Positions 40,121-56,709 of a DNA stretch of 56,709 nucleotides are shown here, piece after piece. Each line of letters begins with the position of its first letter. The first letter of the stretch is position 1. Origin of the DNA: Thermoplasmatota archaeon (GTDB lineage Archaea > Thermoplasmatota > Thermoplasmata > Thermoplasmatales > GCA-001856825); contig JAMCQR010000006.1 in the NCBI GenBank assembly GCA_023379555.1, forward strand, positions 1 through 56,709, in the 5' to 3' direction. The notes under the pieces are model-generated. The model saw nothing but the letters and a program-made list of their open reading frames with translations. It ran no database searches and was not told the DNA's origin. The position numbers and the translations under genes were made by a program.

Positions 40121-41599
40121 CTACATCTGTAAGGTAATTGAACTAGGAATCGACGGATAGGGGGAGAGACTTTTTTGGGTGGAGAGCCACATTACCGGAA
40201 GCATGATTATCCACAGAAAAACCGCTAATTCTGTTTGCTGTCCTAGGGACCAGAATGGCCATATCTTAGACTGAAGTGAAAATGTATAGTAATATATGAA
40301 AATCGGGACAATTCCAAGTAAAACAGCGTAAACTTCGATGATCCCTAATCCCACTCTTTTACCAGACATAAAAAATGAAGCCCCTATTAAGAATCCAGAC
40401 AATGTCATCGTGTATGACATTATTGAAAATACAACTGCGTTCTCAATCGCTAACCGAGTTATAGGTGGGTCGAACCAAATGATGGCAAGAAAAGAAGAAA
40501 TAAAGAGCAAAAATATGCCAAAATACGGTTTCATAAAGCGTCTCTTTAAGGTTGAAGAAATAAGGTAAAATAAGATGAATCCGTCTAGAATCATAAACAT
40601 CCCTGTTCCAAAGAGAAAGAAAGGTGAAGTTTCCAAATCATACAGAATGCCTAGTAAAACCAGCAACTGGGAAAATGTTATGGTGAGGGCCATTACTAAA
40701 GTCATACCAATTTTTGCTGGGCCTAAAGTCGCTAAAAACCTGGGGGTTCTTTTCCTCTCGTAATATCTTGACACAAAAAAGTAAGTCATGATAAGCAAAA
40801 AAACGCTCAAGAAAATAAAGGGGATGAGCAGGATATTAAGTAAGAGAATTGTAACAGCAGGAAGAAGAGCAATTGAACTTTCGCATTGGCAGCTCAGAGC
40901 AGCCACAATTCCGTACCCAGCTGCCATAACACCGCTTTCTTTTCCATTCACTGCAGAATCTTCATTTCTTCTCTTTGCAATCAGACTGAATATCCTGTGG
41001 TAGTTTTCAACTAACAATGATGAAAGGCTCATAGTTAGAAAGAATTGAAGAGGACTAATTATGACGTCAGCATATGGGGTACTCACAAAAATGCCATATA
41101 TCTCAGTAATTGGCAATGAAAAGCCTATAGTTGAAATCCTGTCCGAAAGGTTTTGAATGATTATCGAGGAAGCAGTCTGTTGATTTACAAATACGAAAAC
41201 CTTAGAAATGATAAGAACGAGGAAAATTACAGTATACAAAGAGACTCCCTTTGAAAGCTTGTCGTTATTCCCAAGCTGGGAAGCATAGATGACCATCCCC
41301 GCAAGGGCAGGAATCAGAAGAAGGAAAGAAAGTAAACTCCTGGATATGACAATTAACCCAGCAAGATAAAATGAAATCGTAACTAGAATGTAAAATGAGA
41401 GATTTTCCCACTTAGAAAGAAGTGATGACAACACCAACAAGTTAAGGACTATTGAATATGAAATTAGCTGCAAAACTGAATCTGAAGTTACCAAAAGGTA
41501 TTTCGAATAGTAGCCAGTGATGATAAAAGTATTGATAAAGAATAAAGAAATAAGCAATAAAATTGAATAAGGCGTCCCTTTCTCATTCTTTGAATGCAT
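40121..41599 (-). CDS. Polytopic membrane protein of the Rieske operon
   Basis: I do not recognise this 492-aa protein with about 12-14 spans. A polar patch ALSCQCESSIALLPAV near residue 235 contains two cysteines that might bind metal or form a disulfide. The gene overlaps the cytochrome b gene by 17 nt and precedes the membrane Fe-S gene by 28 nt, so it is very probably part of the respiratory complex or its assembly. It has no heme-binding His pair of the cytochrome b kind. Confidence 0.65.
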   Translation of the reverse strand: MHSKNEKGTPYSILLLISLFFINTFIITGYYSKYLLVTSDSVLQLISYSIVLNLLVLSSLLSKWENLSFYILVTISFYLAGLIVISRSLLSFLLLIPALAGMVIYASQLGNNDKLSKGVSLYTVIFLVLIISKVFVFVNQQTASSIIIQNLSDRISTIGFSLPITEIYGIFVSTPYADVIISPLQFFLTMSLSSLLVENYHRIFSLIAKRRNEDSAVNGKESGVMAAGYGIVAALSCQCESSIALLPAVTILLLNILLIPFIFLSVFLLIMTYFFVSRYYERKRTPRFLATLGPAKIGMTLVMALTITFSQLLVLLGILYDLETSPFFLFGTGMFMILDGFILFYLISSTLKRRFMKPYFGIFLLFISSFLAIIWFDPPITRLAIENAVVFSIMSYTMTLSGFLIGASFFMSGKRVGLGIIEVYAVLLGIVPIFIYYYTFSLQSKIWPFWSLGQQTELAVFLWIIMLPVMWLSTQKSLSPYPSIPSSITLQM

Positions 41600-43193
41600 G
41601 TGATCTGTACAACTTTACAAAGGCACCGGCCAGGGTGAACAGGAGTGCCATCCCGACCCCATAAAGTCCCTGGGAGGTAATCTGAGTTGGAGACATGACT
41701 GATATAATTGCAATTATCGCAATAGCTAGAAAAGCATATATGCTGCCAAATACAAGGTGCCCCTTGTCTGTCAGTTTCTTTGTGGGAGTTTTGAAGTTGA
41801 CTCCATAAACTAATGCAAAGGTTGCAAGGCTAGTCAGACCCAATATCACAAGTAGAATTATCATGGCGGTGTAATTATAGAATGTAGGGTAAACGATTAC
41901 AGAGTATACTGATATGCCGGTCAAGATAGAAATGAATCCAAGAATCGGAAGGATTGCGTAAACTTTCCATGCATTTTCTCCCAAACTGGATTTACCGAGT
42001 TCGATCCTATTCGCAAGATAATAAATCAAAGGTATGACGACCGCCAATGGTATTATGAAAAACAACAGCCCAGTTATGTTGCTCACAGGTATCCCCGGAT
42101 CAAGAGCCCCCCACGCAGACAGGCCAAACAGATATATGAGACCTACAACTCCAGTCGATACCACAATATTTCTTTTGGTAATTTTCAAGGTATCCTTTTT
42201 TTCGAAGTAGGGTACTGCAAATAGGTATGCAAGCGGAAGTCCAGTAAAGAGTACAACAGCCCAGAATGGACCCAAACTAGTCGAGACCTGGAAATCAAGT
42301 TCTTTGTACACGAACAGTAAAAACCACGGTGGATACGGTGGCACAGATGATGCAAGGGGACTTGATGCAGCCACCTGGGGGAGTGGAGAGAATAGCGCCG
42401 GAACGTTTGGAAGTATAGTGAGAAGAGAGGGAATTATGAAAATTAGAGCAATAGTGAAGAAGGCAATCTGGACCATGTACAAAAGATTGTAGGGATACCA
42501 CGCCTTATAGGATGGTTCTTCTTTGTCTATTGCCGGAACTTTGAATCCAGTTTCCTTAGCGGAGGGCATTATTGTATTGTACTCAGCGAGGAAGAAATGA
42601 ACAGCGAAAAGTATGAGAATTGATCCTGCAAGTATTATGTGCCAGCCTTCAAGTCTGCTGAAAAGGGAGATATCACTCCCATTTCCAAGGAATATCGTTG
42701 AAAGATATGAACCTATAACAGGGAAACCGTTTGCAATCCCCCTTCCCACATCAGTTGCATCTGCAGAAAGCACATCCCCTGTCATGGAATATCCAAAATA
42801 GGAGATAGCCACTGTCAGTATCATGAGTACGATTCCTGTAAGCCATTGCACCTGTCTTGGTTTTTTGTAGGATCCAACGAACAAGTTGCGGAGTAGATGG
42901 ATGTAAACAAGAGCTATCATGATGTAAGCGCCATACAGGTGAGTTGTCATGATTACTGTTCCGTAAGGAATATGGAGCGTATTCTCAGTACTTATGTACG
43001 CATTAGAAGGCTGATAATAGAAAAACAATATGACCCCAGTCATTACCTCGTAAAAGAAAGCAATCATTATCATTGCCCCTGTCCAGTACCAGATGCCTCC
43101 CTTCTGTCTCATGTAGTCTGGTACTTTTCTAGGAAGAGGCTGAGGCTCATTCATCAATTTTTCAATTAGATTCTCTTTAGTCATTTTAAACAC
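41583..43193 (-). CDS. Cytochrome b of a quinol-oxidising complex
   Basis: The membrane subunit of a bc1/b6f-like complex, 536 aa, with more than ten spans. Four heme ligands are in the classic places: H85 and H99 in THLYGAYIMIALVYIH, H185 and H199 in GWHIILAG..LFAVHFF, each pair 14 apart. The quinol-site loop is PPWF instead of PEWY (PYPPWFLLFVYKEL). The C-terminal spans are longer than in cytochrome b6. It is directly behind the Rieske gene, with no cytochrome c1 gene in the operon. Confidence 0.93.
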   Translation of the reverse strand: MFKMTKENLIEKLMNEPQPLPRKVPDYMRQKGGIWYWTGAMIMIAFFYEVMTGVILFFYYQPSNAYISTENTLHIPYGTVIMTTHLYGAYIMIALVYIHLLRNLFVGSYKKPRQVQWLTGIVLMILTVAISYFGYSMTGDVLSADATDVGRGIANGFPVIGSYLSTIFLGNGSDISLFSRLEGWHIILAGSILILFAVHFFLAEYNTIMPSAKETGFKVPAIDKEEPSYKAWYPYNLLYMVQIAFFTIALIFIIPSLLTILPNVPALFSPLPQVAASSPLASSVPPYPPWFLLFVYKELDFQVSTSLGPFWAVVLFTGLPLAYLFAVPYFEKKDTLKITKRNIVVSTGVVGLIYLFGLSAWGALDPGIPVSNITGLLFFIIPLAVVIPLIYYLANRIELGKSSLGENAWKVYAILPILGFISILTGISVYSVIVYPTFYNYTAMIILLVILGLTSLATFALVYGVNFKTPTKKLTDKGHLVFGSIYAFLAIAIIAIISVMSPTQITSQGLYGVGMALLFTLAGAFVKLYRSHAFKE

Positions 43194-43904
43194 CTACTGG
43201 GTCGTAGTGACCGTGGTTTTCCCCGATGGGGTAATGTTGCTTCCACCTGTCAGATCTGAAGAGTGCCCATATATGGTGGGTCCAACTAGCAATGTTGCAC
43301 TGTAGGAATCAGATTTCTCGTCATAACTGAGGACAACACTGGGCAAGGGTGCTTGTGTAGGCCCTGTTACGACGCCGAATCCGGAATAGGGATCATAAGT
43401 GCTCCCGTGGCAGTCACAGTGTATCTTTCCAGGGAAAGAAGAAGATGATGGAGGGTTAAAATGTATTTCCGGAGGAATACAACCCAAGTGCTGACATATT
43501 GCGGAAGCTGCAACGACTGATTTATATGGTCCGACCCCCCCAGGAACTTTGTATTTCGTGTTATTTGCAGGGATTCTCACTTCGGTTGGATTGATTTCGA
43601 CGTCCTTGTTATTTGAATCACCAAGTCTGAGGAGAAAATTAGGTTCGTTTTCTAGTGGGAAATTGAACGTCACCGTTTGCGGGTTGTTGACAATAAGATC
43701 ATCTGTGCTTACCGGGTTCCCGTTTGGCAAGTAAAGGGTAAGGATAGGAAATGAAGAAGCTCCACCTTCTATTGGAGGGATGATGTTCTGGACAACGCTC
43801 CTGAGCGTCCCAGCAACTCCTGCGCCTATTATCATCACTCCTAAGAGCTTCATGAAATTTCGTCTATCTTTATCCTTAATCTCATCTCTTGTTGGCACAG
43901 ACAT
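43194..43904 (-). CDS. Rieske iron-sulfur protein
   Basis: A 236-aa [2Fe-2S] protein anchored by an N-terminal helix. The cluster ligands are C137-Q-H139 and C163-D-C165-H166, with C142 and C165 as the disulfide pair, in the order CQHLGC ... HCDCHGS. The N-terminus has R14-R15 in DRRNFMKLLG, a twin-arginine signal, so export in the folded state by Tat is expected. Between the cupredoxin gene (4 nt) and cytochrome b (adjacent). Confidence 0.95.
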   Translation of the reverse strand: MSVPTRDEIKDKDRRNFMKLLGVMIIGAGVAGTLRSVVQNIIPPIEGGASSFPILTLYLPNGNPVSTDDLIVNNPQTVTFNFPLENEPNFLLRLGDSNNKDVEINPTEVRIPANNTKYKVPGGVGPYKSVVAASAICQHLGCIPPEIHFNPPSSSSFPGKIHCDCHGSTYDPYSGFGVVTGPTQAPLPSVVLSYDEKSDSYSATLLVGPTIYGHSSDLTGGSNITPSGKTTVTTTQ

Positions 43905-43908
43905 CCCC

Positions 43909-44655
43909 TTAAGCCGTTACCTGGACTACTCCTTCCATCCACCCTGCAGTTGCCATCGCTCCTCCCCAACCGTCAAGCTCGTGACCGCAGGGCACATAGC
44001 ACTGCCAGGGATAGCTACCGGTATTGTTAAGATAAAACTCTGTAAATGTCACTGCGCCTCCCGATGGATTCGTTCCAGCAAATGTTGGAACATTTAGCAC
44101 AATTTGTCCGTTTGAAAGCAAAGTGAAAGTGTGAGTGACTTCCCACCCTCCAAATGTAGAATTCCACGGAAGCGACGAAACTGCCCATCCGCTTCCATGT
44201 ACTATTGAAATATCGTTAGAAGCATTGCCACTTAATGTAGAATTTATATACTGAGCTGTTCCATTATAAACATATTCGACTCCACCCACTGTTCCTATTA
44301 CTTTGGCATATGAAGAATTATTTGAAGTTCCGTTAGGGCCGATTATGCTTGTCACTCCACTATCATAATCGATTATAGTTAGCTTTATCAATCTGTGTGA
44401 AGGAAGTGTAATCACAGCAGAAGATTCAAGTTGACCATTTGGTCCAACTACGAAGAAGGCAGGCTGAGTATGATGTATTGTAGCATTGTCAAACCAGTTA
44501 TTAGGCGAAATCAACAGGGTCAAAGATACAGGTCCTTGAGGTAACTGCTGCTGCGGGGTTGAAGACAGAGTTTTGTCATAAGCTACGCCCACTCCTATTC
44601 CACCAACAAGAATAATGGCTGCTATGATGGCATAAAACGTCTTTTCGCTTATCAT
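43909..44655 (-). CDS. Membrane-anchored cupredoxin-like protein
   Basis: A 248-aa protein with one N-terminal membrane anchor (residues 7-26), a Thr/Ser/Asn-rich region with sequons, and a C-terminal cupredoxin fold. The copper ligands are probably the histidine in VTHTFTLL and the Cys/His/Met set in WQCYVPCGHELDGW..AM. The spacing C-x3-C-G-H matches neither canonical CuA nor sulfocyanin exactly. It could accept electrons from the Rieske protein on the outer face. It is first in the operon; the divergent kor operon begins 450 nt away. Confidence 0.75.
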   Translation of the reverse strand: MISEKTFYAIIAAIILVGGIGVGVAYDKTLSSTPQQQLPQGPVSLTLLISPNNWFDNATIHHTQPAFFVVGPNGQLESSAVITLPSHRLIKLTIIDYDSGVTSIIGPNGTSNNSSYAKVIGTVGGVEYVYNGTAQYINSTLSGNASNDISIVHGSGWAVSSLPWNSTFGGWEVTHTFTLLSNGQIVLNVPTFAGTNPSGGAVTFTEFYLNNTGSYPWQCYVPCGHELDGWGGAMATAGWMEGVVQVTA

Positions 44656-45107
44656 CCGACATTTAAGTAACTGATGTTAATAAATGTAACGTGGGATTAA
44701 AGAGTTTTAATAAAATTTAGCGACATTAAATAGATTTAGTTTTTTATATATGTTATGGTGAACAATTTTTATTTACCTACAAATCCCGGCATCACATCTC
44801 TGCGAAATAAGGCTAATGGGAAAGCCAAAAGAGATACATTTAAGGGCGAATTTTCAGTATCTTAAGAATCATATTAAAGTTACTTATTTCATTCGGAAAT
44901 TATATTTCATCGATTTTCAATTGCGCTTTCAGTGTTTGTTTTGGATACAACTCCTGTCATCATAACAGAAATTCAGCTTTAATTAAGTAACACAAATAAG
45001 ATTTAATTAACCTAAATATTTTAGTATACATTAGATAATTGGCATATTTTCTACGAAAAGAATTTATAGCGTTTTAAGAATAGACTGTTAATTCGTCAGG
45101 AGTTTTT
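44656..45107. other. Divergent regulatory region between Rieske and kor operons
   Basis: An AT-rich region between two divergent respiratory and metabolic operons. On the plus side, AATTTATAG (45061-45069) is a TATA box about 40 nt before the korD ATG, with AGGAG at 45098-45102. On the other side several TATA-like runs precede 44655. A 36-codon frame at 44755-44865 has no supporting signal. I see no clear palindrome. Confidence 0.5.
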
Positions 45108-45404
45108 ATGATTAAGGAAAATAAACCTAATCTATCCCAGGACGAGATTTGGAGAGAACCAGTCAACCTTGCACTTTTCAGAAAACCCCAGGGCAAGGTT
45201 CATGTTATTGCCGAAAGGTGCAAGGAATGCAACTACTGTACAAATTACTGCCCAAATGAGGTGCTTGAAAGATCCACTAACACAAACAGCCACGGATACC
45301 ACTACGTGCAGGTCAAGGCAGGAAAAGAAAGTTCCTGCGTAAATTGCGGAATGTGTCAAACCATATGCCCAGACTTTGCAATATTTGTCACGGAGGTGCA
45401 GTGA
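45108..45404 (+). CDS. korD: 2-oxoacid:ferredoxin oxidoreductase, delta subunit
   Basis: A 98-aa dicluster ferredoxin subunit. The first [4Fe-4S] set is C38, C41, C44, C48 (CKECNYCTNYCP) and the second C77, C80, C83, C87 (CVNCGMCQTICP). In Kor/Vor enzymes this subunit moves electrons from the thiamine site to ferredoxin. It starts the operon after an AGGAG site. The last four bases overlap korA. Confidence 0.92.
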   Translation: MIKENKPNLSQDEIWREPVNLALFRKPQGKVHVIAERCKECNYCTNYCPNEVLERSTNTNSHGYHYVQVKAGKESSCVNCGMCQTICPDFAIFVTEVQ

Positions 45405-46543
45405 ACTTGAATATGTTACCTCCTGGGAAATATTTTACAGACGGAAATTTTGCTGCCACAGAAGGAGCATTATATGGTGGATGTAGATTCTTCGCAGGGT
45501 ATCCTATCACACCCTCAAGCGAAATATTAGAAAGAATGAGCAGACGTTTACCAGAGGTCGGAGGGCACTTCATCGAGATGGAGGACGAAATAGCCAGCAT
45601 AGCCGCAATTATTGGTGCTTCCAACGGCGGGCTAAAAAGCATGACTGCCACTTCAGGACCTGGTTTTTCCTTGATGCAAGAGAATATAGGTCTGGGAATG
45701 ATAACCGAGACTCCGACGGTCATCATTGATGAAATGAGGGCTGGACCTTCCACTGGAATCCCAACCAGAGTGGGCCAGGGAGACGTAATGCAAACTCGGT
45801 GGGGTTCTCACGGAGATTTGGCACCTATTACTTACTCTCCTAACAGTGTACAGGAATCATTTGATTTAACGATATTAGCTTTCAATTCGGCTGAGATCTA
45901 TAGGCAGCCGGTAATAATCGCTTCTGACCAGGTAATTGGCCACCTAAGCGAGATTCTTACGGTTGGTAATCCTGAAGAGTACGAAGTGATCCAGAGACTT
46001 ACCAGGAAGAAAGCGAACGGGAACCACAATACATTCAGTTATTCTGATGACTTTATTCCAATGTTTGTTCCCGGAACAGGATTCAGAGGTAACGTCGATA
46101 GTCTCACGCACGATGAAATGGGTTATCCTTCTAATGATGCATCAGTGGAAAGGGAGATGCTTGAACATCTACTGGGAAAAATCAAGAGGAACGAAACGAA
46201 AATAATACGTTTTGAGGAGTATATGACCGACGATGCGAAAGTAATAGTTGTTGCGTATGGGATCACCTCAAGGTCTGCCAAAAAGGCAGTTAAGAATGCG
46301 AGGGATGAAGGTTTGAAGGTCGGCCTATTCAGGCCCATTACGCTCTGGCCCTTCCCCGAAGGAAGAATAGTTGAACTCGCAGAGAAAACAAGGAAATTCA
46401 TAGTGCCAGAAATAAACTATGGCCAGTATTCCCATCCAGTCAGGGAATTCAGCAGAAGGGAGACAGAAGAGATTCACTTTCCACCTGGTGCAATACCTGA
46501 TTTTAAGATCATTTTAAGGGAAATTGAGAGGTCATTTACATGA
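45401..46543 (+). CDS. korA: 2-oxoacid:ferredoxin oxidoreductase, alpha subunit
   Basis: The 380-aa alpha subunit that carries the substrate/CoA-binding domains. Visible are GCRFFAGYPITPSSEI, the loop HFIEMEDEIASIAAI, ATSGPGFSLM and RVGQGDVMQTRWGSHGD. It is probably of the 2-oxoglutarate or branched-chain 2-oxoacid class; the class is not certain. I take GTG 45401, with GGAGGTG just before it and a GTGA overlap with korD. ATG 45413 is the alternative. Confidence 0.92.
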   Translation: MNLNMLPPGKYFTDGNFAATEGALYGGCRFFAGYPITPSSEILERMSRRLPEVGGHFIEMEDEIASIAAIIGASNGGLKSMTATSGPGFSLMQENIGLGMITETPTVIIDEMRAGPSTGIPTRVGQGDVMQTRWGSHGDLAPITYSPNSVQESFDLTILAFNSAEIYRQPVIIASDQVIGHLSEILTVGNPEEYEVIQRLTRKKANGNHNTFSYSDDFIPMFVPGTGFRGNVDSLTHDEMGYPSNDASVEREMLEHLLGKIKRNETKIIRFEEYMTDDAKVIVVAYGITSRSAKKAVKNARDEGLKVGLFRPITLWPFPEGRIVELAEKTRKFIVPEINYGQYSHPVREFSRRETEEIHFPPGAIPDFKIILREIERSFT

Positions 46544-47382
46544 GCATTGAGGAAGTGCATCCAAAGAGTCAATTTCTGAGGGACGAGAGACTCCCGCATA
46601 TCTGGTGCCCAGGTTGTGGATTGGGGATCGTACTTCAAAGTTACATCAATGCAGCTGAAAAATCTGGAATCAGGCTGGAAAATCACGTATTGATTTCAGG
46701 AATAGGGTGTACGGCCAGGCTTCCAGGGTATGCAAATCTTGATACTTATCACACAACCCACGGAAGGGGGATTCCTTTCGCAACTGGAATGAAAATCGCT
46801 AATCCGGATCTAAAAGTGACTGTGATCAGCGGAGATGGCGATCTGTTCAACATTGGTGGGAATCATTTCATACATGCCGCAAGAAGGAACATGGACCTTT
46901 TGGTGGTTTGTGTCAATAATTTCAACTATGGCATGACAGGAGGACAGCACGGATCAACTACCCCGCCCTCCTCCCTGTCTTCCTCTACACCCTACGGGAA
47001 TATAGAGCAATCATTCAATCTGCCATATCTTGCAGCAGCAATAGGTGCATCGTATGTTGCCAGATGGACAGTCATGCATCCAAGACAGTTTACAAAGTCA
47101 CTGTCTAAAGCGATGGATATAAGGGGATTTGCATTTGTGGAAGTGTTATCTCCATGTCCTCCAAACTTTGGCAAGTTCAATGGCTTTTCAGACGGGTTTG
47201 CAGAAATGGAGTTCTACAGAAAGAATTCTGTAGTCGATAATGAGGCAAAACTAGAGGATGTCTCAATTGACCCACATCACGGCAAACAAATAATTCTGGG
47301 AGAATTTGTCAACAAAAGAAGACCTTCTTTCATAGAGCTGGAAAGAGAGGTCAATCGAAGGGCGATGGTGGTGGAAAAATGA
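46540..47382 (+). CDS. korB: 2-oxoacid:ferredoxin oxidoreductase, beta subunit
   Basis: The 280-aa thiamine-diphosphate subunit. Cluster cysteines C23 and C26 lie in WCPGCGLGIV, another is in SGIGCTARL, and the TPP-magnesium motif is GDGDLFNIGGNHFIHAARR followed by NNFNYGMTGGQ. The HTTHGRGIPFATGMK block is typical. The gene overlaps korA by 4 nt and korC by 4 nt. Confidence 0.95.
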   Translation: MSIEEVHPKSQFLRDERLPHIWCPGCGLGIVLQSYINAAEKSGIRLENHVLISGIGCTARLPGYANLDTYHTTHGRGIPFATGMKIANPDLKVTVISGDGDLFNIGGNHFIHAARRNMDLLVVCVNNFNYGMTGGQHGSTTPPSSLSSSTPYGNIEQSFNLPYLAAAIGASYVARWTVMHPRQFTKSLSKAMDIRGFAFVEVLSPCPPNFGKFNGFSDGFAEMEFYRKNSVVDNEAKLEDVSIDPHHGKQIILGEFVNKRRPSFIELEREVNRRAMVVEK

Positions 47383-47909
47383 CTGTAAACATAAGGATTT
47401 ATGGAATGGGAGGGCAAGGGATTATCACACTGGCCAAGCTGATAGGAGAAGCTGCAGTTGAAGACGGGAAATCGGCGATCATGACCGAGGAGTATAGCCC
47501 TTATGTTACTGGTGGCTGGTCAACAGCCGATCTTATTATCAGCGATCATGAGATAGACTATCCGCTCATTGAGAATCTCGATTATCTCGTCACTCTCTCT
47601 CAAGAAGGGCTGGAGAAAAATCTCGAATCAATAAAAATGAGCTCCAAACTAATTACTGAAAAGTCTCTTGTTAAGGTGCCCGACTTATATAAGAAACAGG
47701 CCTTTGAAATACCGGGAATAGAGCTGGCCAAATCCCTGAATAATCCAAAGGGGACTAACATGGTTATAATGGGGGCGATAGGTGGGGTTACGAAATCCTT
47801 TTCGAAGGAATCAGGCAGGGCTGCCATCTCGAAAAGATTTCCCAGTTTCTCGGAAATTAACATAAATTGCTTTGACAGAGGTTTTGAGGAGGTGACTCGA
47901 CCTGGCTGA
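47379..47909 (+). CDS. korC: 2-oxoacid:ferredoxin oxidoreductase, gamma subunit
   Basis: The 176-aa gamma subunit with the CoA/GGQG motif YGMGGQGIITLAKLIGEA near the start and EEYSPYVTGGWSTADLIIS. It completes a four-subunit Kor/Vor enzyme (delta, alpha, beta, gamma order). It contains GGAGGTGA (47888-47895) near its end, which serves the next gene. Confidence 0.93.
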   Translation: MTVNIRIYGMGGQGIITLAKLIGEAAVEDGKSAIMTEEYSPYVTGGWSTADLIISDHEIDYPLIENLDYLVTLSQEGLEKNLESIKMSSKLITEKSLVKVPDLYKKQAFEIPGIELAKSLNNPKGTNMVIMGAIGGVTKSFSKESGRAAISKRFPSFSEININCFDRGFEEVTRPG

Positions 47910-50900
47910 CAAAGTCCTTGTCATCGGAGGAGGAATTGCTGGAATCCAGGCTTCTTTGGACCTCGCGGAATCTGGAGTAGAAGTGGTACTTGTGGAAAAA
48001 AGTCCCTCAATAGGGGGCAAGATGGCAGCGCTGGACAAGAATTTTCCAACGATGGATTGCTCAATCTGCATCGAAGCACCAAAAATGAGCGACGTCATTC
48101 ACAATCCGAATATCAAAGTTCATTCACTATCGGAGGTCACAAAAATTGAGGGGAAGGAGGGGGATTTCGAGGTCACTATTTACCAAAAGCCAAGGTTTGT
48201 CGATGACTCCTGCACAAGATGCGATTTATGCGTGCAAGCTTGTCCCCAAATACTGAAGAATGAATTCGACGCTGGAATTGGAGCCAGAAAGGCAATATAT
48301 ACCCCATTTCCACAGGCGGAACCAGGTCCATACGTCATCGATATTGATAGCTGTTTGAACGAACCACCCAACTATCTACCTTGCGGAAGATGCACAGACG
48401 CATGCGGTCCTGGAGCGATAGATTTCAACATGAAGCCAAAACTGATAAAAGAAAAGGTGGTTTCAGTCATTGTTGCAACCGGGTTCGATCTATTCAACGC
48501 ATCGCTGCTGAACGAGTTCGGTTATAGCAAGGATCCTGACATTCTGACATCCTACGAATTGGAAAGGATGATCAATGCGGCGGGCCCTACGGATGGAGAA
48601 ATAATCAAACCTTCAAACGGACAGCACCCTGAAAAAGTATTGTTTGTTCTGTGCGCAGGTTCCAGAGATGCGAGATTTGTTCCATATTGCTCAAGAACTT
48701 GCTGTATGTATTCCATCAAAGAAGCTTCCCAGCTGGTAGACCACGGAATAAAGAATGTTTCAGTCCTGTACATGGATATCCGAGCTTATGGGAAAGGTTT
48801 CGACGAATTCTACTCAAGGTCACAAAGGGACGTCAGATATATAAGGTCAAGGCCAGCATCCGTTAGAAGGAAGGGGGATTCCATAGAGGTAAGATACGCG
48901 AAGGAGGACGGCTCCGTCACGAAGGAGGACTATGACCTCGTTGTTCTTGCTACTGCCTCGATCCCATCAAAGGGAACGGATAAGTTAGCTGGAATTCTCG
49001 GACTGGAGTTATCTGAAGACGGATTCTTCAAGAACAAACAAGATGACCCAGTTTCTACATCAAGAGAAGGGATATTTGTGGCTGGATGCGCTTCGGGGCC
49101 AAAGGATATCCCAGATAGCGTTACAGAAGCTTCTGCAGCTTCTGCCAGAGCGCAGAAATATGTCAAGAACAGAGAATGGATAGCGGAACCAAAAGCACCT
49201 CCTCTTGATATGTCAGGAGACCCAAAAGTTGGAGTTTTCCTCTGCGACTGTGGTTCGAACATAGCAGGAGTGGTTGATGTAAAAAGGGTTGCAGAGGAAA
49301 TGAAAAAAGTGCCGAACGTAGTCTACGTCGAGGAGAATAAATTCACCTGTTCTGGCAGCTCTCAGGATGCAATAGCTGCAAAAATCAAGGAAAAAGGGTT
49401 GAACAGGGTAGTGGTAGGGGCATGCTCTCCCAAGACTCACGGAGTAACCTTCCAGAGGGTGTGTTCAAGGGCAGGCCTGAATCCCTATCTTTTTGAAATG
49501 GCAAATGTGCGAAACATGGACTCATGGGTCCACAAGAAGGAAAAGGATAAAGCGACGGAGAAGGCAACAGATTTGGTGAAGATGGCAGTCGCAAAAGTGA
49601 AATTACTGTCTCCGATGGATGATATCGAGTTTCCAGTTATTAAAACTGGCGTCATCATTGGGGGAGGACCTGCGGGAATGGCTTCAGCTGCGGCCTTATC
49701 CAACATTGGACTCGAGGTTCACCTGATAGAGGAGAAAGGAGAACTTGGAGGGCTTCTCAACTCGCTAGACAGGGTAGCTCCTTCTAATATTGAGGCTGCT
49801 GAGATTTTTAAAAAATTGAAGAAGGGAGTGGAAGAATCTAATGTACGTATTCATACATCAACAAAAGTGAAAGAGATCACCGGTTTTGTAGGAAATTTCT
49901 CCCTTAAGCTTTCAAATAATGAGAATATTGAAGCGGGAGCTATAGTTATAGCCACCGGTGCTGACCCTTACTCCCCTACCGAGTTCAATTATGGAAAAGA
50001 TGAAAAGATCCTCACTTCGAATGACATAGAAAAGAAATACTCACGACTGGAGGGAGAACGCTTTGCCCTAATATCGTGCGTTGGATCAAGAACTAGGGAG
50101 AAAGGATGTTCAAGATTCTGCTGCTCAACGATGCTCCAGCAGGCAATAGATTTGAGAGAGAAGGGAAAAATCGTAAGGGTTTTCTACAAGGATGTCAGAG
50201 CATATGAGAGAAACGCAGAAGAATTGTACAAGAAGGCAGGGGAAAAAGGGGTCCAATTCTACAGGTATGATTCAGAAAAACTCCCACAAGAGGCAATTTT
50301 CTTCGACGGAAATTCAGTGACATTCGTGGATGAACTTACGTCCGCAAAATTGAAAGCGCCAGTCGATAGAGTCGTATTGAACGTCGGTCTTATGCCGAAG
50401 GATCAGGAAATATTCACCCAATTGAAGCTTTCGAGGGACAACGAAGGCTTCCTGCTTGAATCTCACCCAAAACTCGGTCCCGTGGAAGCCGCAGTTCAGG
50501 GTATCTTCTTGGCAGGAACAGTTCAGGGACCGAAGGATGTGAAAGAGTCAATTTCTCAGGGTTATGCCACAGCTTCCAAGGCAGCAAAGCTGCTGATGGG
50601 AGGGAAGATATCAAAGGAACCCATAATTCCGCAGATCAATACAAACAAGTGCGTCAAGTGCCTGAAGTGCGCAGAGGTTTGTCCGTACGGGGCGATAAAA
50701 GGTGAAAGGGGAAAATGGATAAACCTAGTCCCAGCAGCGTGCATGGGATGCGGGAACTGTGTCGCTGAATGTAATATTGAAGGGGCAATAACCATGCCCA
50801 ATTTCACCGACGAACAAATAATGACGCAGATCGATCAGGCCACGGCCGAAAAAGCAGAAGAGAAGTTACTGGTGTTCGCCTGTAACTGGTGTTCATATGC

Positions 50901-51294
50901 GGGCGCTGATCAGGCCGGAATATCAAAGATACAGTACCCTCCCAGTGCGAGAGTTATAAGGACCATGTGCTCCAGCAGAATATCCCAAAAACTAGTCATG
51001 TATGCATTTAGCAAGAATCCGGGGGCAGTCCTGGTCACTGGATGTCATATAAATGATTGCCACTACATAGACGCTAACGTTCATACTGAGAAAAGAATGG
51101 AGAGATGGAAGAGGTTCATATCAGCGAAGAACGTGAATCCGGATAGATTACAATTGTGGTGGGTCAGCGCCGCAGAAGGTAACAGGTTTGCATCAAAGAT
51201 TAAGGAAATGGATGCGCTGATCAAATCTCTCTCTAAGGAAGAGATTCTGAGCACTTCAGAAAAGATTGGAGGGGTGGTAAAACGATCGAAATAG
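47902..51294 (+). CDS. Tandem HdrA - HdrA - MvhD fusion, start codon apparently CTG
   Basis: A 1130-aa flavin/iron-sulfur protein. Unit one (about 1-430) has FAD motif GGGIAG at 9-14, cluster cysteines C104, C107, C110, C114 and C151, C161, C164, C168, and SRDARFVPYCSRTCC. Unit two has VFLCDCG (C448, C450), FAD motif GGGPAG near 588, a CVGSR..CSRFCC set and a dicluster ferredoxin (CVKCLKCAEVCP and CMGCGNCVAEC) near 917-950. An MvhD-type domain follows at about 990 (FACNWCSYAGAD). TTG 47956 would remove the first FAD motif; the CTG at 47902 stands 6 nt after GGAGGTGA. HdrA proteins bifurcate electrons; thus a role in ferredoxin-linked electron confurcation is inferred. Confidence 0.88.
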   Translation: MADKVLVIGGGIAGIQASLDLAESGVEVVLVEKSPSIGGKMAALDKNFPTMDCSICIEAPKMSDVIHNPNIKVHSLSEVTKIEGKEGDFEVTIYQKPRFVDDSCTRCDLCVQACPQILKNEFDAGIGARKAIYTPFPQAEPGPYVIDIDSCLNEPPNYLPCGRCTDACGPGAIDFNMKPKLIKEKVVSVIVATGFDLFNASLLNEFGYSKDPDILTSYELERMINAAGPTDGEIIKPSNGQHPEKVLFVLCAGSRDARFVPYCSRTCCMYSIKEASQLVDHGIKNVSVLYMDIRAYGKGFDEFYSRSQRDVRYIRSRPASVRRKGDSIEVRYAKEDGSVTKEDYDLVVLATASIPSKGTDKLAGILGLELSEDGFFKNKQDDPVSTSREGIFVAGCASGPKDIPDSVTEASAASARAQKYVKNREWIAEPKAPPLDMSGDPKVGVFLCDCGSNIAGVVDVKRVAEEMKKVPNVVYVEENKFTCSGSSQDAIAAKIKEKGLNRVVVGACSPKTHGVTFQRVCSRAGLNPYLFEMANVRNMDSWVHKKEKDKATEKATDLVKMAVAKVKLLSPMDDIEFPVIKTGVIIGGGPAGMASAAALSNIGLEVHLIEEKGELGGLLNSLDRVAPSNIEAAEIFKKLKKGVEESNVRIHTSTKVKEITGFVGNFSLKLSNNENIEAGAIVIATGADPYSPTEFNYGKDEKILTSNDIEKKYSRLEGERFALISCVGSRTREKGCSRFCCSTMLQQAIDLREKGKIVRVFYKDVRAYERNAEELYKKAGEKGVQFYRYDSEKLPQEAIFFDGNSVTFVDELTSAKLKAPVDRVVLNVGLMPKDQEIFTQLKLSRDNEGFLLESHPKLGPVEAAVQGIFLAGTVQGPKDVKESISQGYATASKAAKLLMGGKISKEPIIPQINTNKCVKCLKCAEVCPYGAIKGERGKWINLVPAACMGCGNCVAECNIEGAITMPNFTDEQIMTQIDQATAEKAEEKLLVFACNWCSYAGADQAGISKIQYPPSARVIRTMCSSRISQKLVMYAFSKNPGAVLVTGCHINDCHYIDANVHTEKRMERWKRFISAKNVNPDRLQLWWVSAAEGNRFASKIKEMDALIKSLSKEEILSTSEKIGGVVKRSK

Positions 51295-52412
51295 ACGACT
51301 CAAGATGGGAAAGGATCACCAATCTGGTCGGGTTCAGCGGAAGCGAATGTTTTCAATGCGGAGTGTGTACGGCGACCTGTCCTCTGGGATTCATGGGAGA
51401 AGAGACCATAGATACCCGTAACATTCTGAGAAGGGCGCAGATTGGCGCGGAACTCCCGGATAGCGTTTGGAAATGCTCTACCTGCAGACTATGTGAGGAA
51501 TCTTGTCCCAGGGATGTTGATATTGTAAATGTAGTACTGGGGCTGAGAGAGCTGGAATTTCAAGATAGGAAGGCACCTGAAAGAATAGAGAAACTTGTGT
51601 GGGATATATATGAGGATGGGAATCCATGGGGAGGGAAGAAGGGAGACAGAAATAAGTGGGCAGAAGGTTTGGAAATAAAGGATGCTAGTAAAGGGGTGGA
51701 AACGCTACTATTCGTGGGATGCGACGGTGCATACAATAAGGAACTCCACAAGTCGCTTCGCTCTCTTGCAGAAATCCTGAAGAAATCAGGAACAGATTTT
51801 GGTTTCCTAGGAAATGAAGAATCCTGCTGCGGCGAACCTGTCAGGGACGCAGGGGAAACGGGGTACCTAGACGAGCTGGTAGAGAAAAACATATCACAGT
51901 TTGAGAGTACTAAGGCCAGGACTCTTGTGACATTCTCGCCACACTGCAGCAACATGTTCTCGACGATCTACAAGAAAAAAGGGTTGAAGATGAAGGTAAT
52001 GCATTATTCAGAATACTTAAATGAACTTGTCAGGGATGGGAAAATTACCATCAATTCTGAAATCAAGAAAAAAATAACAATTCACGACCCATGCTACCTC
52101 AGTAGATATGGAGGAGACTCGAAAGAGTTGAGGGAACTGGTCGTTAAGGTACCAGGAACTGAAATAGTGGAAATGGAAAATTCCGGTAAAAACAGCTTAT
52201 GCTGCGGAGGTGGCGGGGACAGGATTTTCATGGATTTCGAAGGAAAGAGGCTTTCAGATTTCAGGATGGAACAAGCAAAGAACACCGGTGCCGAGGTAGT
52301 CATAACCGCGTGCCCGATCTGCAACATGAATCTCTCAGACAGCAGGAAGGTAAATGGAATAAAAATGGAAATTATGGAACTTTCCGAATTCCTGAAGGGG
52401 GGAACGGAATGA
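51282..52412 (+). CDS. HdrD-like protein (HdrC + HdrB domains), start uncertain
   Basis: About 376 aa. The N-terminal dicluster ferredoxin has CFQCGVCTATCP then CSTCRLCEESCP. Two CCG (cysteine-rich) domains follow: GCDGAYNK..SCCGEP..HCSNM, and HDPCYL..LCCGGGG..CPIC, as in HdrB/HdrD. These bind the non-cubane clusters that reduce disulfides. An in-frame GTG at 51363 lies inside the first cluster motif and cannot be the start. Upstream in frame there are only ACG 51282 (behind GGAGGGG) and CTG 51324 as near-cognate options. It overlaps the end of the HdrA gene and the etfA start by 4 nt. Confidence 0.82.
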   Translation, partial: TIEIDDSRWERITNLVGFSGSECFQCGVCTATCPLGFMGEETIDTRNILRRAQIGAELPDSVWKCSTCRLCEESCPRDVDIVNVVLGLRELEFQDRKAPERIEKLVWDIYEDGNPWGGKKGDRNKWAEGLEIKDASKGVETLLFVGCDGAYNKELHKSLRSLAEILKKSGTDFGFLGNEESCCGEPVRDAGETGYLDELVEKNISQFESTKARTLVTFSPHCSNMFSTIYKKKGLKMKVMHYSEYLNELVRDGKITINSEIKKKITIHDPCYLSRYGGDSKELRELVVKVPGTEIVEMENSGKNSLCCGGGGDRIFMDFEGKRLSDFRMEQAKNTGAEVVITACPICNMNLSDSRKVNGIKMEIMELSEFLKGGTE

Positions 52413-53383
52413 CAAGGAAGGAGATATGGGTCTATATTGAGAGGAACAACTCAGGTGTTGAAGACGTGTCATTGGAAATATTAGGCAAAGGAACTGAATT
52501 GTCAAATATTTCTGGGTACATACTGGTCGGACTGATTGCCGGTACTCCAGAAAAGAAGTTGATAGACCTCGTGATAGAACACGGGGCAGACAGAGTTGCA
52601 CTACTTAAGAATGAAATGTTGAATGAATATTCTACTGACTATTTTGTAAATGCAATTTCTGAATATATAAAGAACGATCCTCCGGAAGTTATGCTGATAG
52701 GAGCAACGCAAAATGGAAGGGACCTAGCAGGGAGACTGGCAGGTAGATTGAAGACTGGCCTAACTGCAAATGCCATTACTCTATCAATTGACCGTGAAGG
52801 GATGCTCCTGGCAGGAGTTCCTGCATATGGTGGAAAAATTCTCGCTGAAATTGGCTGTGAATACGGGAGACCGCAAATGTCAACCGTACGTCCAGGAACA
52901 TTTAAGATGAAAGAAGTGAAGAATAAAAAAGGGGAGGTTGATGAATTCATTCCAAATTTATCTGCTATCAGACAGAGAGTGAGAATTGTAGAAAGAAATG
53001 TGAGCGAAGTGAACGATCTAACAAGATCTGAAAGGACAATCATCGGAGGTAACGGAACCAGAGGTGACCTGACACTGCTAAAGGAATTGGCTCAATTGAT
53101 GAATGCTGAGATAGGGGTCACAAGACCTCTAGCAGACAGAGGGGTAGCCCCGAGGGAGTTGCAGGTGGGTTCGACGGGCTACTCTCTGAAAAGCAAAATC
53201 GCGTTGGTGCTTGGAGTCAGCGGGTCGGAACATTTCACTTCTGGGATAAGAGACTGTGAGGAGGTCATTGCAATTGACGTGGACGAGAAATCAGAAATTT
53301 TCAACCACTGTGACTATTGTATGGTAGGGGATATTTTCGAGGTGCTTCCGCTGACAATAAAGAAAATGGAGGAAACTAGATGA
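52409..53383 (+). CDS. etfA: Electron transfer flavoprotein, alpha subunit
   Basis: The 324-aa FAD-binding subunit. The C-terminal half has the signature GVSGSEHFTSGIRDCEEVIAIDVDEKSEIFNHCDYCMVGD-like stretch, preceded by VGSTGYSLKSKIALVLG; the N-terminal half has GRDLAGRLAGRLKTGLTANA. The start ATG overlaps the hdrD stop (ATGA). Etf next to Hdr genes is unusual and suggests that the electron acceptor or donor of the Hdr part is Etf. Confidence 0.93.
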   Translation: MTRKEIWVYIERNNSGVEDVSLEILGKGTELSNISGYILVGLIAGTPEKKLIDLVIEHGADRVALLKNEMLNEYSTDYFVNAISEYIKNDPPEVMLIGATQNGRDLAGRLAGRLKTGLTANAITLSIDREGMLLAGVPAYGGKILAEIGCEYGRPQMSTVRPGTFKMKEVKNKKGEVDEFIPNLSAIRQRVRIVERNVSEVNDLTRSERTIIGGNGTRGDLTLLKELAQLMNAEIGVTRPLADRGVAPRELQVGSTGYSLKSKIALVLGVSGSEHFTSGIRDCEEVIAIDVDEKSEIFNHCDYCMVGDIFEVLPLTIKKMEETR

Positions 53384-54165
53384 AAAACATCATTGTTTGC
53401 GTCAAGGTGGTACCTAAATCCGACAATATAATTTTTGACCCGGTAAACAAGAGACTTGACCGTACTAAGGCAGAAAACCAGATCAACGCAGCAGACAAGA
53501 GTGCAATTGAAACTGCTCTAAGAATAAGAGAGAGAGTCGGTGGAAAAATAACATTACTTTCAATGGGACCCCCTTTCTTTGAACCGTTCCTGAAATTAGG
53601 AATAGCTATGGGGGTTGACGAGGCAATCCTTCTTTCGGATAGAAATTTTGGTGGTGCAGATACTTTCCCCACAGCGTTAGTACTCGCAACAGCTATCAAG
53701 AAAATTGGGAACGTAGATCTAGTGCTGACAGGTGAAGAATCATCAGATGCCGGACTTGGGCAAGTACCGTCACAGATAGCAGAATTTCTGGATTTCCCCC
53801 AGGTCCTTTTTGCTTCCACCACTGACATATCTGGAGGTACGTTGATCGCCAGAAGGTCAATAAAAGGAGGTTATGAGATCTTAGAATCAGATTTGCCGGC
53901 TGTTGTAAGTGTAGTTCTGGGAGCATATCAACCCAGATTTCCAGACTTTAAGAAGAAGAAATGGGCTGACAATAATTACAAGGTCAAAGTTTGGAACGGG
54001 GAAGATCTGCAACTGAGCGAATCAGTCACAGGCATCAAAGGATCTTTCACCACGGTGAAGAGACTGGTAGAGATTCCCCAGTCATCAAGGAAGAAAATTA
54101 TCATAGATGGAACGCCAGAAGAGAAATCATCAAAACTGGTTGAGATTTTAAGAAAGGCAAAATAG
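53380..54165 (+). CDS. etfB: Electron transfer flavoprotein, beta subunit
   Basis: The 261-aa partner. It begins with IIVCVKVVPKSDNI, has AADKSAIETALRIRE, GVDEAILLSD, the nucleotide-binding ILTGEESSDAGLGQVPSQIAEFLDFPQV-type block, and ends with the short C-terminal tail. The ATG overlaps etfA by 4 nt. It is the last gene of the operon; the ferredoxin gene opposes it 19 nt away. Confidence 0.94.
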   Translation: MKNIIVCVKVVPKSDNIIFDPVNKRLDRTKAENQINAADKSAIETALRIRERVGGKITLLSMGPPFFEPFLKLGIAMGVDEAILLSDRNFGGADTFPTALVLATAIKKIGNVDLVLTGEESSDAGLGQVPSQIAEFLDFPQVLFASTTDISGGTLIARRSIKGGYEILESDLPAVVSVVLGAYQPRFPDFKKKKWADNNYKVKVWNGEDLQLSESVTGIKGSFTTVKRLVEIPQSSRKKIIIDGTPEEKSSKLVEILRKAK

Positions 54166-54184: not shown

Positions 54185-54613
54185 TCACTTTCTCTTTGCT
54201 ACTGAAATGGCTCCAGCGGGACATGCGGCCACGCAGGCATTACACAAAATACAATCTTTCTCTCCCACAGGGTCTGCCTTATCGGTTCTGTAAGTATCCC
54301 AGAGTAGAGTTCCGCGTTCAATCGGTCTGTCATTTCCCTTTCCCCGTTTACCCGGATTCAGAGCCCATTCGAATCCGTTCATCGGGCAGGCTTCCATGCA
54401 GGATCCATCGGCAATGCAGCTATCCCAATCAACGGCAACATTCACACCATGAATCCCTAATCGTGTAGGATACGGTTTGTTTTCTTCATCAAACCTCACT
54501 TTACCTTCCGCCCTTACCTCGTGCCCATTGTGCATTCCCGTTATTGGATATTGGTCCGGAAGATCGAAAAAATTTTCATCAATTGCCCTTGGTGGGTAAT
54601 CAACTTTTTCCAT
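54185..54613 (-). CDS. Zinc-containing dicluster ferredoxin
   Basis: A 142-aa soluble ferredoxin of the Thermoplasma/Sulfolobus type. The N-terminal extension has H28, H31 and H55, the likely zinc ligands. The first cluster C66, C72, C76 has D69 in place of the usual cysteine (CIADGSCMEACP), expected to give a [3Fe-4S] site; the second is C121, C124, C127, C131. It is the natural electron acceptor of 2-oxoacid oxidoreductases and stands next to the kor-hdr-etf operon. Confidence 0.95.
   Translation of the reverse strand: MEKVDYPPRAIDENFFDLPDQYPITGMHNGHEVRAEGKVRFDEENKPYPTRLGIHGVNVAVDWDSCIADGSCMEACPMNGFEWALNPGKRGKGNDRPIERGTLLWDTYRTDKADPVGEKDCILCNACVAACPAGAISVAKRK

Positions 54614-55807: not shown

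Positions 55808-56709
<902 letters not shown>

Follow-up and report, generated by a model that had tools for sequence, protein, structure and literature searches.

A conserved korDABC-hdrA-hdrD-etfAB operon of Thermoplasmatota and Chloroflexi: a possible new class of electron-bifurcating or -confurcating complex

Results

The stretch of DNA analysed here, called the window, comprises positions 1 to 56,709 of contig JAMCQR010000006.1 from a Thermoplasmatota archaeon (assembly GCA_023379555.1, 89% complete). Eight genes in the order korD-korA-korB-korC-hdrA-hdrD-etfA-etfB lie on its + strand at 45108-54165, with intergenic gaps of at most 8 bases (Table 1). They encode a 2-oxoacid oxidoreductase (Kor), a tandem HdrA-HdrA-MvhD protein, an HdrD-like protein and both subunits of an electron transfer flavoprotein (Etf). 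An earlier reading made from the letters alone, the sequence-only reading, had described eight overlapping or nearly touching genes in one direction. All of them were found at their place on the + strand, and Pfam assigned all eight proteins to the expected families, in agreement with the NCBIfam names. Kor has the alpha, thiamine pyrophosphate (TPP)-binding beta, gamma and ferredoxin-type delta subunits that define a four-subunit Kor/Oor enzyme. Since the genes touch or overlap, a single transcript is expected. No hydrophobic segment was found in any of the eight proteins, HdrD included.

Table 1. Genes of the operon and units of the tandem HdrA protein
Feature	Position	Strand	Description
korD	45108..45404	+	delta subunit, ferredoxin-type 2x[4Fe-4S], 98 aa, 8 Cys
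korA	45413..46543	+	2-oxoacid:acceptor oxidoreductase alpha; NF006412 482.9 bits, cut-off 411
korB	46540..47382	+	TPP-binding beta subunit; Pfam, NCBIfam
korC	47379..47909	+	gamma subunit; Pfam, NCBIfam
hdrA	47902..51294	+	HdrA-HdrA-MvhD tandem, 1130 aa, CTG start
HdrA unit 1 (aa 1-430)	47902..49191	+	FAD/TrxR domain with inserted 2x[4Fe-4S] domain
HdrA unit 2 (aa 440-983)	49219..50850	+	N-terminal FeS domain, FAD domain, C-terminal 2x[4Fe-4S] domain
MvhD (FlpD) domain (aa 986-1113)	50857..51240	+	5 conserved Cys
hdrD	51282..52412	+	soluble, HdrC-like 2x[4Fe-4S] + two CCG domains; start probably ACG
etfA	52409..53383	+	Etf alpha
etfB	53380..54165	+	Etf beta

Pfam confirmed the two HdrA flavin units and the MvhD domain that had been read from the sequence. 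The protein has the HdrA fold with its FAD domain and FeS cysteines, as HdrA-type bifurcating enzymes do, and among the solved-structure matches listed for it thioredoxin reductases rank below HdrA. The two units are complementary halves, with the N-terminal FeS domain and Cys197 split between them. Unit 1 lacks the N-terminal domain and the C-terminal ferredoxin; its C56 is the equivalent of Cys197, and its E221 and K273 are the equivalents of E356 and K409. Unit 2 has the cysteines of the N-terminal FeS domain (C448, C450, C483 and C508), and its FAD domain has no inserted ferredoxin, no Cys197 equivalent and Q746 at the K409 position. This division was found across 154 aligned HdrA sequences. 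The E356 and K409 equivalents of unit 1 are both present in 154/154, as is each of the eight cysteines of its inserted ferredoxin, and the N-terminal FeS cysteines of unit 2 are equally invariant (154/154). In unit 2 the E356 equivalent is found in 143/154 and the K409 equivalent in 13/154, and the stretch 581-725 contains no Cys in 140 of the 154 rows, the window's HdrA among them. The C56 column holds Cys in 149 rows, a stop codon (TGA) in four and a gap in one. The earlier idea of HdrA flavin bifurcation is supported for unit 1, which has the published residues; the two units are not equivalent copies.

The solved structure nearest to HdrD is 9ojn, equated here with the mycobacterial EtfD described in PMC13083937 because molecule name, length and residue numbers agree (here and below, papers are cited for their available excerpts). 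EtfD passes electrons from Etf via CCG clusters to menaquinone (PMC13083937). The first CCG site (CCG1) of HdrD reads SPHC, so that the first Cys of the final CxxC is missing, and the second (CCG2) is complete. That Cys is lost in 24/24 Etf-linked HdrD rows and present in 7/7 Etf-less rows, of which L086 and L098 have lost other cysteines. An HdrD of the heterodisulfide type, with two complete five-Cys CCG sites, was therefore rejected. The incomplete first site also makes CoM-S-S-CoB an unlikely acceptor; the sequence-only reading had set it aside because Thermoplasmatales do not make it. The QmoC model matches HdrD weakly (33.5 bits, cut-off 300).

Bifurcating Etfs are marked by DGDTAQVGP and RxFxG in EtfB and by an Arg of EtfA on N5 of the FAD (PMC9232219, PMC5691135). 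In Ldh-EtfAB, changing the Arg abolished coupling, and changing the motif lowered it to 7% or below detection (PMC9232219). In the window, EtfA has Val137 (52817-52819) where the Arg would contact the bifurcating FAD, and EtfB retains RNFGG (53641-53655) and has DAGLGQVPS (53746-53772) at the DGDTAQVGP position. The Arg position holds Val in 24/24 cluster rows; among the 120 EtfA homologues listed, the window's own included, it holds Val in 113, Thr in seven and Arg in none. Among cluster EtfB proteins, the RxFxG of the NAD site is present in 23/23 and DGDTAQVGP in 0/23 (one Etf row, L171, duplicates L069). The Etf as an NADH-bifurcating site was rejected on the motif and the Arg. Of the two roles given earlier to the Etf, exchange with NADH or with quinone, the first is not supported as a bifurcating site, and the second is plausible with a membrane EtfD homologue in the genome.

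The sequence-only reading had proposed a search for the same gene order around tandem HdrA proteins, and the order was found in archaea and in Chloroflexi. Of a set of 41 genomes, 11 (one of them the window's own) have an uncut tandem HdrA with an identity of 62% or higher, and all eight genes are present in identical order in 11/11. Contig ends cut the cluster of a twelfth genome (G026), where the remaining genes fit the order. In this set the etfB of L036 reaches the contig end, and the hdrD of L031 and L039 includes unreadable (X) stretches. The shared order exceeds chance. Flanking genes vary between the genomes, save for a zinc-ferredoxin gene in some, and offer few hints about the pathway. 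Over the class, HdrA was found at E <= 1e-250 in 54 of 400 genomes. Eighteen of these have an HdrA of at least 52% identity, and they are the ones found with the cluster: 16 carry the complete eight-gene cluster (the window's genome, 12 more from the order and three from other families of the class) and two are cut at contig ends, namely G026 and G145, whose contig stops in hdrA with Kor beyond view. Wider context was fetched for four of the remaining 36; two have Kor without Etf and two have neither.

A second, named collection, in which 80 of 591 loci were kept, contains five loci with the eight genes in order: L064 (Dehalococcoidia), L065 (Anaerolineae), L066 (Anaerolineaceae), L069 (Thermoplasmata UBA61) and L085 (Chloroflexi). 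L068 (Elusimicrobia) stops in etfA, and L067 and L117 stop after or inside hdrA. Kor, HdrA and HdrD without Etf are found in six loci (L086, L087, L090, L098, L099 and L102), with korD off the contig and korC apart from the rest in L087. In the other 66 loci, some of them on very short contigs, a full Kor set is not directly beside HdrA; it lies about 6.5 kb away in L103. The closest named relatives of the window's HdrA are from Thermoplasmatales and Thermoplasmata metagenome-assembled genomes, in keeping with the placement in the sequence-only reading. That the operon is one unit had been proposed before, and its order in 11/11 uncut genomes and in two domains supports a conserved functional unit.

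In a FastTree phylogeny of 99 HdrA proteins, 21/21 Kor-Etf rows and two contig-cut rows group together in a single 23-member clade, whose local support is full (the supports are local, not bootstrap). The nearest sequences outside this clade are those of Etf-less Kor clusters and of L140, a contig with little beyond hdrA. Because the nearest relatives are Etf-less Kor clusters, and because Kor stands next to other HdrAA lineages in L174 and L176, Kor probably joined the cluster first and Etf later. Pairwise distances of KorA, KorB, KorC, HdrA, HdrD, EtfA and EtfB correlate over 20 clusters (r 0.91-0.975). Kinship among the rows inflates these values; they fit inheritance as a block, in the sense that nothing contradicts it.

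Several observations were made on related clusters. The four HdrA stop codons mentioned above, TGA at the Cys197 equivalent, belong to bacterial Kor-HdrA-HdrD clusters without Etf (L087, L090, L099 and L102), with two such TGA sites apiece in L087, L099 and L102; they probably encode selenocysteine. L087 and L099 carry further CCG (HdrB-like) genes beyond HdrD, and also an HdrC-like ferredoxin gene (L087) and another HdrA-MvhD gene (L099). Three genomes of another family have a second KorA-KorB-like pair adjoining the operon (L040 15612-17514, L042 3285-5187 and L039 1-1997). A different multi-HdrA locus, consisting of HdrA, an open reading frame (ORF) of 850 to 920 aa resembling a double HdrA, and a separate MvhD, is present in another family of the order (G017, G021, G024, G027, G030, G032, G034, G036, G038 and G040).

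The genes are tightly packed. korD and korA are 8 nt apart, 4-nt overlaps join korA/korB, korB/korC, hdrD/etfA and etfA/etfB, and korC overlaps hdrA by 8 nt. korA starts at ATG 45413, with an in-frame TTG upstream also possible. The length of 1130 aa given earlier for HdrA is correct, but only with CTG 47902 as the start; the earliest ATG, GTG or TTG is TTG 47956, and aligned relatives within the order start with ATG or TTG. In hdrD no ATG, GTG or TTG lies upstream of the first ferredoxin motif, and GTG 51363 sits within it. The start is probably ACG 51282, which aligns with ATG or GTG starts of relatives (ATG in L039 and L168, GTG in L169) and gives a 13-nt overlap with hdrA. The hdrD start is apparently ACG (51282-51284 in the window) in 9/9 genomes of the window's family, including L031-L038. 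The ACG overlaps the final hdrA codons, which may be why it is conserved. Because hdrD has no usual start codon, a programmed hdrA-hdrD frameshift was considered. It was ruled out by the aligned ATG or GTG starts and by a TAA in the hdrD frame just 5' of the ACG in L031.

By eye, TTTATA at 45063-45068, 40 bases 5' of korD in a 452-base AT-rich gap, is a possible archaeal TATA box. On the - strand at 41583-44655 lies a cytochrome b gene followed by genes for Rieske-like and blue-copper-like proteins; these last two calls were made by eye, with no Pfam hit. A zinc-containing ferredoxin gene (54185-54613, - strand; NF041165 209.7 bits, cut-off 280) faces the end of etfB, and adjoins etfB also in L031, L032 and L035, not in L033, L037 and L038. 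The 5' part of a 16S rRNA gene was recognized by eye at 55810-56709.

The operon's HdrA is the sole HdrA match in the genome. The assembly holds three EtfAB pairs, one of which adjoins a FixC-like gene (ETF-QO domain) and a gene for a FixX-like ferredoxin. It has in addition a complex I 49-kDa subunit, eight matches to acyl-CoA dehydrogenase domains and four further POR-domain frames of 585-642 aa, which are probably gamma-alpha fusions. It also encodes a membrane EtfD homologue of 661 aa (C2:137909-139891; L186 5910-7892) with four hydrophobic segments and a CCG1 of the CPHC type, which is expected to link Etf to menaquinone. FrhB, NuoF and [NiFe] hydrogenase gave no match in the assembly; MetF was not searched for. 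Two trios of formate dehydrogenase alpha (FdhA), AsrA-like and AsrB-like genes were found (L191 5350-9039 and L192 3334-7023), one formate dehydrogenase alpha scoring 806 bits (cut-off 666). With these trios, the idea that MvhD lacks a partner in the genome was dropped. AsrA/AsrB-like pairs, of a ferredoxin and an NAD-binding gene, occur near HdrAA in 16/66 named loci without Kor versus 0/14 loci that have Kor (Fisher p 0.06; the rows are related), as would be the case if Kor had replaced this pair as the donor.

Discussion

We propose that the operon encodes a soluble HdrA flavin complex which is fed by Kor and splits electrons, with HdrD and Etf as the high-potential branch. We give this reading a probability of about one in three. 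Kor would oxidise a 2-oxoacid, and KorD would hand the electrons to the MvhD/C-terminal ferredoxin side of HdrAA, the same port that hydrogenase, formate dehydrogenase or MetFV serve in other Hdr complexes. The two HdrA units would behave like a heterodimer built into one chain: the N-terminal cluster of unit 2 would be completed by C56 from unit 1, whose FAD would be the branch point. From there the high-potential electron would reach HdrD by way of the cluster in the FAD domain of unit 1, and then EtfAB. Shuttling single electrons, EtfAB would deliver them either to acyl-CoA dehydrogenases or to a membrane EtfD and so to menaquinone; the low-potential branch would be ferredoxin. Etf can reach menaquinone because a membrane EtfD homologue is encoded in the genome.

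Electron splitting fed by Kor is supported because the bifurcation residues and the inserted-ferredoxin cysteines of unit 1 are invariant, because the Etf has no bifurcating features and EtfD is the closest solved structure to HdrD, and because the eight-gene order is conserved with varying flanks, in one HdrA clade and with correlated distances. With Kor at MvhD, the eight proteins and one universal carrier would be the simplest way to close the three ports of HdrA. The physical Kor-HdrA-HdrD-Etf complex, the direction of its electrons and its third partner are inferred. The leg of Kor is the least sure step, as Kor may sit on MvhD or on the ferredoxin side. In the latter case the same parts would confurcate electrons of the 2-oxoacid and of Etf into a mid-potential carrier at MvhD.

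Several points weigh against our reading. Kor at MvhD is structurally natural but energetically lavish: dividing electrons that already lie close to the potential of ferredoxin would squander energy (about -82 kJ per 4 electrons), so that the gain is not evident (energy values in this section use standard potentials). The FdhA-AsrA-AsrB-like trios are other possible partners of MvhD in the genome, and in G001 (L032/L193) one is found immediately after the zinc-ferredoxin gene that follows the operon. The Etf motif rules derive from clostridial and Acetobacterium enzymes, and the FixC-linked Etf of the same genome keeps the Arg and is also without DGDTAQVGP. The cluster is not everywhere compact: L065 has two additional ORFs between korC and hdrA, and L085 has a gene of the saccharopine-dehydrogenase family (11967-13199) between hdrD and etfA. 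Several genomes of the window's family are without the operon, for example G004, which is 93% complete. The inserted gene of L085 is, in its own right, a hint at lysine or 2-oxoadipate metabolism.

Confurcation is a rather unlikely alternative. Kor (about -500 mV) would supply the low leg and Etf, carrying electrons of acyl-CoA dehydrogenases, the high leg; the two would meet at the unit 1 FAD, or the reaction would run in reverse. The acceptor at MvhD would be a mid-potential carrier, which might be NAD(P) or formate reached via an FdhA-AsrA-AsrB-like module. The steps from 2-oxoacid to acyl-CoA (Kor) and from acyl-CoA to enoyl-CoA (Etf) follow one another in amino-acid breakdown with equal electron numbers, ferredoxin-like KorD could stand in for ferredoxin at the inserted 2x[4Fe-4S] domain, and less energy would be wasted than with Kor at MvhD. 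The eight acyl-CoA dehydrogenase matches, the two trios and the nearness of one to the G001 operon are in keeping with this scheme, and the L085 gene would fit 2-oxoadipate and glutaryl-CoA. The trios offer MvhD a formate or NAD(P) module, although this lies outside the conserved eight genes, from which the mid-potential partner is missing. The NAD-type AsrA/AsrB pair is found in none of the 14 named Kor loci and is absent from the 16 other Kor or Etf cluster loci checked, G001 excepted, and confurcation to NAD would be uphill by about 25 kJ per 4 electrons.

A plain wire from Kor through HdrA, HdrD, Etf and EtfD to quinone, a bypass of ferredoxin for 2-oxoacid oxidation in which nothing is split, is unlikely. 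The membrane EtfD in the same genome and the cytochrome b gene in the window would suit it; however, such a wire would not need the bifurcation pair and the eight inserted-ferredoxin cysteines that unit 1 keeps in every aligned sequence. Mere co-transcription, with Kor and HdrA-HdrD-Etf as separate enzymes that share ordinary ferredoxin, is a little more improbable again. korDABC does stand beside the other HdrAA lineages of L174 and L176, and HdrAA without nearby Kor is common (62/112 rows are labelled as having none, many with short context). The identical order across domains, the single clade and the correlated distances argue against it, as does a genome that has four other POR-domain frames yet only the HdrA of the operon. 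It is very improbable that bifurcation takes place in EtfAB itself with NADH, in the manner of Bcd-Etf, Car and Ldh-Etf. EtfA and EtfB do have bifurcating Etfs as their best solved-structure matches, and RxFxG is universal in the cluster, but DGDTAQVGP and the Arg are missing throughout, and it was these whose change abolished or cut coupling in Ldh-EtfAB (PMC9232219). A sulfur- or disulfide-linked Hdr, sHdr-like or a heterodisulfide reductase, is scarcely credible: HdrA and CCG proteins are common to such systems, but Pfam gave no TusA, DsrE or lipoate-binding (LbpA) family for any of the eight proteins, and CCG1 is incomplete in every Etf-linked row.

If electron splitting or merging by this operon were true, electrons from 2-oxoacids, and thus from amino acids, need not all cross free ferredoxin; a dedicated machine would divide them, or combine them with electrons arriving from Etf (the fatty-acid stream). 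A function would be assigned to one branch of the tandem HdrA proteins, and the role of Hdr-like proteins would be explained in Thermoplasmatales, which are not known as methanogens. Being soluble, the system would also allow a direct test of which partner serves which leg.

Parts of the operon resemble known systems. The Qmo complex likewise contains an HdrA-type flavoprotein and an HdrA-MvhD protein, whereas the operon has neither QmoC nor aprAB and is soluble. Adjacent HdrA-type genes shaped like QmoA and QmoB (416-418 and 748-762 aa) occur in G010 and G016 (L043 6063-9484; L044 7394-10838). Compared with HdrABC-MvhAGD and HdrABC-Fdh of methanogens (5odc, 7bkb, 8rvu), the operon has its two HdrA units in one chain, Kor in place of hydrogenase or formate dehydrogenase, merged HdrB and HdrC, an incomplete CCG1, and Etf. 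Flavin units that complement each other in N-terminal domain and Cys197 are shared with type II HdrA (PMC12054007), with HdrA3/HdrA4 fusions of anaerobic methanotrophic archaea (ANME) and with MetFV-HdrABC-MvhD of Moorella (PMC9012536). A double-HdrA fusion to MvhD has already been published (PMC11237513), and the HdrA of the purified Moorella MetFV complex has been read as such a fusion (PMC9012536); type II HdrA had seen no biochemical investigation so far, according to the available part of PMC12054007. The operon's HdrA differs from these in its order of halves, reversed relative to ANME HdrA3/4 as published, in a second unit mostly without the Lys, and in its partners, Kor and Etf. HdrF3-EtfBA of Desulfobacterium autotrophicum shares an HdrD-like protein beside Etf, but HdrF is membrane-bound, and neither Kor nor HdrA is named for that locus in the excerpts available (PMC2702500). 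EtfD (9ojn, PMC13083937) shares the HdrC-like ferredoxin and two CCG domains that act with Etf, whereas the operon's HdrD has no membrane part with haem b and quinone site, has SPHC for CPHC in CCG1, and stands beside HdrA.

No description of the operon was found in the open-access literature, to which the search was confined, subscription papers lying outside its scope. The 12 bifurcating complexes named in the available text of PMC6085437 include none with a 2-oxoacid oxidoreductase and none that joins HdrA and Etf. There is thus a serious possibility, short of an even chance, that the operon represents a new bifurcating or confurcating class in archaea and bacteria, in which Kor would be built into a tandem-HdrA complex and a non-bifurcating Etf, attached via a soluble EtfD-like protein, would be the high-potential branch. 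HdrA-MvhD modules with exchangeable donors are already known; the complexes named in those excerpts show neither a 2-oxoacid oxidoreductase in the donor role nor Etf in the acceptor role.

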